From Gammaproteobacteria bacterium (GTDB taxonomy: Bacteria; Pseudomonadota; Gammaproteobacteria; Steroidobacterales; GCA-2729495), in assembly GCA_024276095.1 (NCBI GenBank), contig JAJRXW010000150.1, forward strand, positions 1-32,480: 32,480 nt of DNA, written 5' to 3'. Below the pieces are notes generated by a model that ran no database searches, was not told the origin of the DNA, and saw nothing but the letters and a program-made list of their open reading frames with translations. This document shows, piece after piece, positions 3,987-10,913 of this stretch. The position numbers and the translations under genes were made by a program. The first letter of the stretch is position 1; every line of letters begins with the position of its first letter.

Positions 3987-6140
3987 GTGGACGTCACATC
4001 GATTATAGAACCGCTTAACGACGCCCAGCGCGAGGCGGTCACAGCACCCAGCGCACCGCTGCTGGTGGTTGCCGGCGCCGGCAGCGGCAAGACCCGGGTG
4101 CTGGTACATCGGGTGGCGTGGCTCCTGCAGGTCGAGAATGTCTCCCCCCTTGGAATTCTTGCAGTTACTTTCACCAACAAGGCCGCAGCGGAAATGCGCG
4201 GCCGGATCGAGAGCCTGCTTGGCCTGCCGGTCAGCAATCTCTGGATCGGGACTTTTCACGGGCTGGCGCATCGTTTGTTGCGCAAGCACTGGCGGGAAGC
4301 CGGCCTGCCGCAGTCCTTCCAGATCATCGATTCGGATGATCAGCAGCGGCTGATTCGGCGCATGCTGAAAAACATGGAGGTGGACGACTCGGTCTGGATA
4401 CCGCGTGAAGTTCAGTGGTTTATCAACAACCAGAAAGACGAAGGCCTGCGCCCCGACGATATCCGGGATCAGGGCGACCAGAACCGGCGCGAGCTGATTC
4501 ATTTCTACCGAAGCTACCAGGAAATCTGCGAACACTCCGGGCTGGTCGATTTTGCAGAGCTGCTGCTGCGATCCCTTGAACTGTGGATCAATAACCCGGC
4601 TGTCCTGGAGCGCTATCAGCGGCGCTTCGGTCACTTGCTGGTCGACGAATTCCAGGATACCAATGCCGTACAGTACGAATGGCTGCGGCGACTGGCGGGA
4701 GACAGCGGTATTCCTTTTGCGGTGGGGGATGACGATCAGTCCATATACCGCTGGCGGGGCGCCAGAGTCGAAAACCTGCAGAAGTTCCGCAGGCATTTCC
4801 CCGGCGCCCACACCGTCAAGCTGGAACAAAACTACCGGTCTACCGCCACCATTCTCAAAGCCGCCAATGCCATCATCGAGAACAACAGCTCCCGGATGAA
4901 AAAAAAGCTCTGGACCGCCGGCAGCGAAGGAGAGCCGATTCGTATCTACAGCGCCTATAACGAGCGCGATGAAGCGGATTTTATTATCGGCAGAATCCAG
5001 GAAGGGCAGAATCAGGGCGCTGCACGCAGTGATATCGCCATATTATACCGGTCCAATGCCCAGTCCCGGGTTTTTGAAGAGGCGCTGCTGCGAAACAATA
5101 TTCCTTACCGCGTATTCGGTGGCCAGCGGTTCTTCGAGCGGGCGGAAATCAAGGACGCTTTGGCCTACCTGAGACTGATCGCCAGCCGGGACGACGATGC
5201 TTCATTCGAGCGGGTGGTCAACCTGCCTACCCGCGGGATCGGCGCGCGCACGGTCGATATCATCCGTCAGTATGCGCGCGCCAATGCAATTTCCATGTGG
5301 CAGGCGGCGAGAACGGCGGCGGGCGGCCAGCTTTCGGGCCGGGCCGCCAACGCAGCAGGTGCTTTTTTGCAGCTGATCGAGATGCTTGACCGTGACACCG
5401 GTGATATGGCCCTGCATGAGCAGGTCGATCATGCCATCCAGAACAGCGGCCTGATTCCGCACTATCGCAAACAGACCAGAGATCGCGCCGAAGCGCGTAT
5501 CGAGAACCTCGAAGAACTGGTCAGTGCCGCGCGGGGATTCGAGCCCGACGAAGAGGACAGCCTGCCGCCACTGGAGGCTTTTTTGTCCAATGCCGTACTG
5601 GAGTCGGGGGAAGCACAGGCCGATGACTGGGAAGACTGTGTGCAGCTGATGACCCTGCATACTGCAAAAGGCCTTGAGTTCCCTGTTGTGATCATTACCG
5701 GCATGGAAGACGGTCTGTTCCCTCACAGCCGCTCACTCAATGACCCGGATGGGCTGGAGGAATAACGGCGGCTTTGCTACGTCGGGGCCACCCGGGCAAT
5801 GAGCGAGCTGTACCTGACCTATGCCGAACAGCGGCGGCTGCACGGGATCGACAGTTTCAGGCAGCCGTCCCGCTTTATCAGGGAAATCCCGGACGAGCTG
5901 GTCGAGGAGATCCGGCCGCAAATCAAGGTATCTCGACCGGTCTATCGACAAGCGGTGCCGACCGTTGCAGAATCTGCCGGTAGCGTGAAGCTGGGCCAGC
6001 GCGTACGGCACAAGAAATTCGGCGATGGCGTGGTACTTAACTGCGAGGGGTCCGGTGCCCACGAGCGTGTTCAGGTGAACTTTGAAACAGAAGGCACAAA
6101 GTGGCTGGTAATGTCCTACGCCAATCTCGACCTGATGTAA
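3987..6140 (+). pseudogene. uvrD: DNA helicase II UvrD, interrupted by an in-frame TAA
   Basis: UvrD is the superfamily 1 3'-5' helicase of nucleotide-excision and mismatch repair. The reading frame matches E. coli UvrD from end to end (718 codons including the stop): Walker A GAGSGKT (30-36), TFTNKAAAEM, LLVDEFQDT (217-225), VGDDDQSIYRWRGA (246-259), EQNYRST and LHTAKGLEFP. The C-terminal RNA-polymerase-binding domain is also present (LGQRVRHKKFGDG). Codon 593 (5763-5765) is TAA. Homologues read LEEERRL.YVG.TRA; here it is LEE-stop-RRLCYVGATRA, so one base change from GAA explains it. The 592-residue product would lack motif VI with its catalytic Arg603 and the whole C-terminus, so it should not unwind DNA. 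No decay is seen beyond the stop, so the change is recent or a sequence error. The GTG start is set by the homologous N-terminus (MDV..I..LND.QREAV). Confidence 0.9.
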
Positions 6141-9539: not shown

Positions 9540-10913
9540 TTGTTATTCCTGAGTGTTGTCGTGGTCCTGCTGGCCGGGTATCCGGTGGCTTTTTCGCTGG
9601 CAGGAACGGCCCTGGTCTTTGCCCTGATCGGTGTCCTTACCGGCACGTTCGATGCCGGCTTCCTGGGCACCATCCCCAATCGCATTTTCGGCATCATGGG
9701 CAATGAAACCCTGATGGCGGTACCGTTATTCGTATTCATGGGCGTGACCCTGGAGCGGGCGCGTATCGCCGAGGACCTGCTCGGTACACTCGGGATGCTG
9801 TTCGGGAAACTGCGCGGCGGGCTGGGCATTTCGGTTACGCTGGTCGGCATGCTGCTGGCCGCCAGCACCGGTATCGTTGGCGCAACAGTCGTAACCATGG
9901 GTCTGTTGTCACTGCCGACCATGCTCAAAAACGGTTACGACCCGGCCATTGCGACCGGCACCATCAGCGCTTCGGGAACCCTTGGGCAGATTATCCCACC
10001 GTCGATCATCCTGGTACTGCTGGGCGACGTGCTGTCGTCATCGTTCCAGCAGGCCCAGGTCAGCCAGGGCATTTTTTCACCGAAAACCGTATCGGTGGGA
10101 GACCTGTTTGTCGGCGCGGTCATCCCGGGTTTGATGCTGGTGGTCCTGTATATTCTTTATCTCTTGCTGGTCGCCTGGCTGCGTCCGAATGCCATGCCGG
10201 TGCCCAAAGAGGTACTGTCCGGGGAGATGGTCGGTTCGCGGCTGCTGGTCAGGGTCATCAAGGCGCTCATGCCGCCGCTCGTCCTGATCATCGCGGTACT
10301 CGGCTCGATTCTTGCCGGCTTCGCCACGCCGACCGAAGCGGCCGCTGTCGGTGCAACCGGAGCGTTGATCCTGGCCCTGACCAAACGCGCCCTGACACGG
10401 GCTACACTGCGGGAAATCATGCGCAGTACCACACGGATCAGCTCGATGGTCTTTATGATACTCATTGGAGCATCGATCTTCTCGCTGGTGTTTCGCGGCT
10501 ATGAAGGGGACGAAATCGTAAGGGAATTCCTGACCGGCCTGCCCGGCGGCGCCACCGGAGCCATCATCACGGTCATGCTGGTGATGTTCCTGCTTGGCTT
10601 CGTTCTGGATTTTATCGAAATCACTTTCGTTGTAGTGCCTATTGTCGGCCCGATACTTTTCACAATGGGAGTCGATCCCGTGTGGCTGGGCATCATGATC
10701 GCAGTCAACCTGCAGACGTCTTTTCTCACACCGCCGTTCGGCTTCGCACTATTCTATTTGCGTGGCGTCGCACCGCCGGAGGTTTCCACGATGACCATTT
10801 ACAAAGGCGTGATACCGTTTGTGCTGATCCAGATACTGGCACTGGTGCTGCTGGCGGTCTGGCCGCAACTGGCCACCTGGCTGCCCGGACAAATCTACGG
10901 CACCGGGCAGTAG
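9531..10913 (+). CDS. dctM: TRAP transporter large membrane subunit (DctM family)
   Basis: This is the large permease of the TRAP transporter, forming the sodium-coupled transport path together with DctQ. The 460-residue membrane protein is in the long part of the family range. It has typical DctM features: PLFVFMG near 64-70, TGIVGATVVTMGLLSLPTML, the ASGTLGQIIPPSI motif, FATPTEAAAVGA, and QTSFLTPPFGFALFYLRGVAP near the end. I chose the ATG at 9531, 11 bases after the dctQ stop, because earlier in-frame starts read through dctQ and trkH. No binding-protein gene adjoins it. The only DctP-type gene in the window lies about 8 kb away on the other strand (18749-19837). Confidence 0.94.
   Translation: MALLLFLSVVVVLLAGYPVAFSLAGTALVFALIGVLTGTFDAGFLGTIPNRIFGIMGNETLMAVPLFVFMGVTLERARIAEDLLGTLGMLFGKLRGGLGISVTLVGMLLAASTGIVGATVVTMGLLSLPTMLKNGYDPAIATGTISASGTLGQIIPPSIILVLLGDVLSSSFQQAQVSQGIFSPKTVSVGDLFVGAVIPGLMLVVLYILYLLLVAWLRPNAMPVPKEVLSGEMVGSRLLVRVIKALMPPLVLIIAVLGSILAGFATPTEAAAVGATGALILALTKRALTRATLREIMRSTTRISSMVFMILIGASIFSLVFRGYEGDEIVREFLTGLPGGATGAIITVMLVMFLLGFVLDFIEITFVVVPIVGPILFTMGVDPVWLGIMIAVNLQTSFLTPPFGFALFYLRGVAPPEVSTMTIYKGVIPFVLIQILALVLLAVWPQLATWLPGQIYGTGQ

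Follow-up and report, generated by a model that had tools for sequence, protein, structure and literature searches.

An in-frame stop codon in uvrD of a gammaproteobacterial draft genome, a probable consensus error of the assembly

Regarding the loss of UvrD-type helicases, uvrD mutants of Pseudomonas aeruginosa and Pseudomonas putida are reported as hypermutable, to a lesser degree than mutS or mutL mutants (PMC8744996); loss of PcrA is described as lethal in Bacillus subtilis, and the combined loss of uvrD and rep as inviable in fast-growing Escherichia coli (PMC7385302, PMC4999830, PMC5389703). According to two of these reports (PMC7385302, PMC4999830), the lethal effect of PcrA depletion in B. 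subtilis is suppressed when RecJ is lost, and so, in part, is that of the uvrD rep combination in E. coli; growth of E. coli without rep and uvrD on minimal medium is also reported (PMC4999830). As for the marks left on a genome, loss of mismatch repair is reported to give transitions and indels (PMC5793043), and low coverage together with low read quality is described as a source of internal stops in bacterial assemblies (PMC11017572).

The stretch analysed here (the window) comprises 32,480 nucleotides, contig JAJRXW010000150.1 of the assembly GCA_024276095.1, assigned to the Gammaproteobacteria (Steroidobacterales, GCA-2729495). Its uvrD gene contains an in-frame TAA, and with a mutator gene interrupted in this way a striking account of hypermutation is tempting; the first-pass annotation proposed a recent mutator-type lesion or, failing that, a consensus error in the assembly. 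It is the fallback that we favour, with a probability of about 0.6 that the TAA is a consensus error in a fragmented draft. The observation itself is correct and the specific mutator story is unsupported, with at least ten such stops in 926 kb of the draft, a pattern better explained by an erroneous sequence, or by general decay; most likely, the feature is an artefact of the draft sequence.

The uvrD frame and its stop codon

The features of the gene, in window coordinates, are as follows:

3987..6140, + strand: frame of uvrD (DNA helicase II) with one stop inside (translation; NCBIfam and Pfam on the halves)
3987..5765, + strand: product as written, 592 aa, with UvrD-helicase and most of UvrD_C, without motif VI (translation, Pfam)
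5763..5765, + strand: in-frame TAA; loci of other genomes have Glu here in 109 of 109 cases (translation, alignment)
5766..5798, + strand: block RRLCYVGATRA, 3′ of the stop, which we take to be helicase motif VI (translation, alignments)
5799..6140, + strand: frame beginning at the first in-frame start (ATG) past the stop; C-terminal tudor domain, without motif VI

On translation, the frame has 592 codons, the TAA at 5763-5765, 124 further codons and a final TAA, so that the initial description of an otherwise open uvrD frame, interrupted just 5′ of motif VI, was confirmed. UvrD family sequence had been claimed for both sides of the stop, and one model is indeed matched by both halves: NCBIfam PRK11773 is covered at positions 1-594 by the part 5′ of the stop and at positions 596-718 by the part 3′ of it, from end to end and with no overlap, which means that exactly one codon of uvrD is replaced and that the protein as written is truncated before motif VI. 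Pfam places a complete N-terminal UvrD-helicase domain (PF00580, 294.7 bits, profile positions 1-271 of 271) and UvrD_C (positions 1-327 of 350) 5′ of the stop; the PcrA/UvrD tudor domain lies 3′ of it. The product as written scores 962.1 bits, below the PRK11773 cut-off of 965, and the frame read through with a placeholder residue scores 1151.7 bits, above it; the cut-off of TIGR01075 (1144.45) is missed even by the read-through frame (1095).

With Glu as the placeholder, the read-through frame aligns with the E. coli UvrD chain 2is1 over residues 1-680 (E 1.3e-271); by our own count on the alignment with 2is1 and 3lfu, the stop corresponds to E. coli residue 595 and the Arg of motif VI (window 5793-5795) to residue 605. 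No in-frame start occurs between the stop and motif VI; the first one, the ATG at 5799, lies past the RRLCYVGATRA block, and motif VI would therefore be absent from any simple product. A promoter and terminator scan of uvrD returned about as many sites as shuffled sequences did.

The uvrD gene among relatives

The codon alignment was built from 29 family loci and 80 contigs, two sets that may overlap; two further rows, L001 and L033, both from the contig of the window itself, are outside these 109. The stop-site codon is GAG in 65 loci and GAA in 44, so that the Glu ascribed to homologues in the first-pass annotation holds throughout, and the sharing of the stop by relatives, which it had listed as refuting, was seen in none of the 109. 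Downstream of the stop there is no excess decay: in the family alignment, the C/N identity ratio around the stop is 0.974 for the window's own genome (G000) against a mean of 0.966 for the relatives (sd 0.033), and 17 of the 29 relatives have a lower ratio. Family-invariant columns are kept by G000 in 242 of 247 cases (98.0%) 5′ of the stop and in 47 of 49 (95.9%) 3′ of it; the relatives' mean is 99.4% in both parts, and their minimum 3′ of the stop is 95.9%. The low values of G000 in both parts fit scattered errors or a faster lineage; by these alignments, the stop is either of very recent origin or not real.

Among the 60 relatives searched are 36 members of the family, in 34 of which UvrD was found, the exceptions being G001 and G032; among the matches listed, ranked by E-value down to weak ones, none of the 36 has a second strong match of the UvrD/Rep type; for this reason, UvrD may be essential in the window's organism. 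In other families of the order, 7 of 23 genomes have a second match at 39-42% identity, which we took for Rep. In the organism's own genome, the other matches to the helicase at E 0.001 are only two stretches of a single long frame on contig 36, which, from its length and match, is probably RecB/AddA-like. A second uvrD or rep copy, another check named in the annotation, was rejected as a rescue, this frame being the only other match in the genome. The search of a plasmid collection with uvrD gave no match.

As for the congener G001, the only one compared, its sequence is matched by none of the UvrD, TrkA and CtaA proteins, and only short ABC-transporter stretches match the first 20 kb of the window. 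Since the neighbouring genes are absent as well, G001 is uninformative on uvrD, and its non-match, due to an assembly gap or to a different region, is no sign of uvrD loss. A RecB/AddA-like gene of the same congener has one in-frame TAA (L115 2761-2763, + strand, contig 153).

In-frame stops elsewhere in the draft

The draft assembly has 2.87 Mb in 322 contigs, with a completeness of 99.69% and a contamination of 2.38%; the contig number and the contamination suggest that it is probably a metagenome bin. Of the 120 stretches of this genome sampled for the census, window included, 104 could be used (926,324 bases) and 16 were dropped as more than half N, ten of them being all N. A codon model trained on 542 long frames served to list the stops with same-frame coding signal on both sides, and replaced a first coding-potential scan which, lacking a frame comparison, was too noisy (326 candidates). 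Fifteen of the 80 candidates were tested with HMMs, and ten were judged to lie inside one gene, the other five being gene junctions or unclear; the remaining 65 were judged by eye and are mostly junctions, where a start codon and a new N-terminus follow soon after, with a few unclear. Ten conserved genes, uvrD included, thus carry an in-frame stop, a lower bound given that frameshifts and short genes are outside the scan; without the window, chosen for its stop, there are nine in 893,844 bases. These nine are:

L170 11158-11160, − strand: RND efflux pump, TAA (contig 55; ACR_tran matched to position 352 on the 5′ side of the stop and from 354 on the 3′ side)
L170 13973-13975: CitMHS transporter, TAG (matched on both sides)
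L207 455-457: DctM, TAA (one model spans the stop)
L222 4404-4406: Rieske/VanA oxygenase, TAA (one model spans the stop)
L206 8120-8122: SDR, TAG (one model spans the stop)
L246 7657-7659: Fnr regulator, TAA (one model spans the stop)
L239 7698-7700: DctP, TAA (one model spans the stop)
L157 11208-11210, + strand: RecJ, TAG (contig 42; a whole-length model spans the stop)
L223 4466-4468: pyruvate:ferredoxin oxidoreductase, TAA (a whole-length model spans the stop)

The recJ TAG sits between the DHH and DHHA1 domains, and none of the 12 relatives searched has an internal stop in recJ; CitMHS of the congener (87% identity) is without a stop. The RND gene is also frameshifted near a T7 run (L170 about 10370-10390, − strand). 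For the oxidoreductase, the match in G012 shows a TAG near the N-terminal end that may lie outside the gene. The Rieske, DctM and Fnr proteins were compared with the plasmid collection, where the matches listed were about 27-40% identical and were not used. Within the window, inspection of the frame list by eye revealed no other obviously broken gene. Regarding the mismatch repair genes, mutL is intact; mutS, on L180 (contig 291), is matched over model positions 1-502 of 840 at the contig start, and is probably cut by the contig end.

The ten stops comprise 7 TAA, 3 TAG and no TGA, where uniform single substitutions would give 31%, 48% and 21%; with n = 10, the TAA excess has P 0.012 and the absence of TGA P 0.10. 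A bias towards A and T is the one explanation that we offer for this skew. An ancestral codon could be suggested for only three of the ten stops, in each case only if one step away: GAA for uvrD, where relatives have GAA or GAG; TCG for CitMHS (TCA, TCG, GGG and GGC in relatives); and CAA for RND (CAG and CAG). Two of these three changes would be of the type G:C to T:A, the third of the type C to T. At the RecJ site relatives mostly have Ala (8 of 12) and at the oxidoreductase site Asn (2 of 2), and no single step leads to the stop from the commonest codons. With an ancestor suggested for 3 of 10 stops only, the base-change spectrum was discarded as a means of telling a mutator from errors. 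If the ten stops were random errors, about 324 substitutions would lie behind them, at a rate of 4.5e-4 per coding base.

The same scan was applied to two sets of control loci: the 29 family loci (134,797 bases, 9 candidate stops) and the 37 of the 80 contig loci with a G+C content of 53-65% (267,603 bases, 14 candidates), the other 43 being outside this range. In these 402,400 bases no stop was judged to lie inside a gene, where 4.3 would be expected at the density of the draft (P of zero 0.013); this control is weak, its loci being selected for an intact uvrD and drawn from many assemblies. Seven of the 23 candidates were tested with Pfam and the other 16 judged by eye; six of the seven have no domain across the stop, and in the seventh, in L014, a sub-threshold TgpA_N match crosses the stop and the CtaA domain ends before it. 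Internal-stop density is therefore raised in the draft compared with the other genomes, ten in 926,324 bases against none judged to be inside a gene in 402,400.

Readings of the stop and described systems

In the favoured reading, a base error in the draft consensus would have turned one uvrD codon into TAA, the living organism most likely makes a full-length UvrD, and the common cause of all ten stops would be a raised consensus error rate, about 4-5 per 10,000 bases if random. The reading is preferred because at least nine other conserved genes of the same assembly have one in-frame stop, against none judged intragenic in the control loci, because uvrD shows no excess divergence 3′ of the stop and shares it with none of the 109 relatives, and because UvrD is the only UvrD/Rep-type helicase found, where PcrA loss is reported as lethal in B. 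subtilis and the loss of uvrD and rep together as inviable in fast-growing E. coli. Several points speak against it: the assembly, at its completeness of 99.69%, is not poor overall; no other gene of the window is obviously broken; seven of the ten stops are TAA; and the RND gene has two lesions, which would suit a true pseudogene or a mutator.

The second reading, which we consider less likely, is a real nonsense mutation of very recent date, carried by the sequenced strain or by part of its population. Without motif VI, the 592-residue UvrD should then be inactive as a helicase, with mismatch and excision repair impaired, and the other broken genes would be partly a consequence of the mutator state, or of relaxed selection. 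Many fresh single lesions, among them the frameshift near the T7 run, form the pattern of a mutator, in which a raised stop density would be expected too; uvrD mutants of Pseudomonas offer a reported precedent (PMC8744996); and recJ, the gene whose loss is reported to relieve the lack of UvrD or PcrA (PMC7385302, PMC4999830), is also broken. Moreover, as E. coli without rep and uvrD is reported to grow on minimal medium, a slow grower might live without UvrD. On the opposite side, no other helicase of the UvrD/Rep type was found in the genome or the family, which makes a viable null less likely and weighs against the specific mutator lesion of the first-pass annotation; the sequence 3′ of the stop has not decayed in excess; and mutL is intact, with the pathway seen in part owing to the cut mutS. 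The G:C to T:A changes at two of the three sites differ from the transitions and indels reported for mismatch-repair loss (PMC5793043), and three cases are indecisive.

A variant of the second reading, that a real loss of UvrD was survived thanks to the loss of RecJ, which would make the organism a double mutant in uvrD and recJ that arose in nature, and a mutator lineage in the wild, draws on the suppression described for B. subtilis and E. coli; if the stop were real, the one helicase of the UvrD/Rep type found in this bacterium would have been lost in nature along with recJ. We regard this variant as very unlikely, since eight other unrelated genes are broken alike and the recJ stop may be a coincidence. 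Finally, readthrough or recoding of the stop, or a helicase made in two assembling pieces, is hardly credible, and these were rejected: the sequence 3′ of the stop is conserved, as any of them would need, but the stop is unshared among relatives, the ten stops include both TAA and TAG, where relatives show Glu, Gln, Ser or Gly, Asn, or mostly Ala, depending on the site, ordinary genes of this genome also end in TAA and TAG, no tRNA gene was found within the window, and a second piece, with no in-frame start before motif VI, would be without this motif.

With a consensus error as the preferred reading, the meaning of the census is a practical one: many genes of the draft have such stops, and gene loss should therefore be called from it only with the reads at hand.

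Compared with the Pseudomonas uvrD mutators of PMC8744996, the likeness lies in the increase of the mutation rate expected from UvrD loss; here, no other helicase of the UvrD/Rep type was found. The likeness to E. coli UvrD (2is1, 3lfu) extends over residues 1-680 with the placeholder Glu, whereas the product as written in the window ends one codon before the motif VI block. As for the spurious pseudogenes described for bacterial assemblies in PMC11017572, the cause is inferred in the present case; the two are alike in having single internal stops in otherwise intact genes, at a frequency raised across one assembly.
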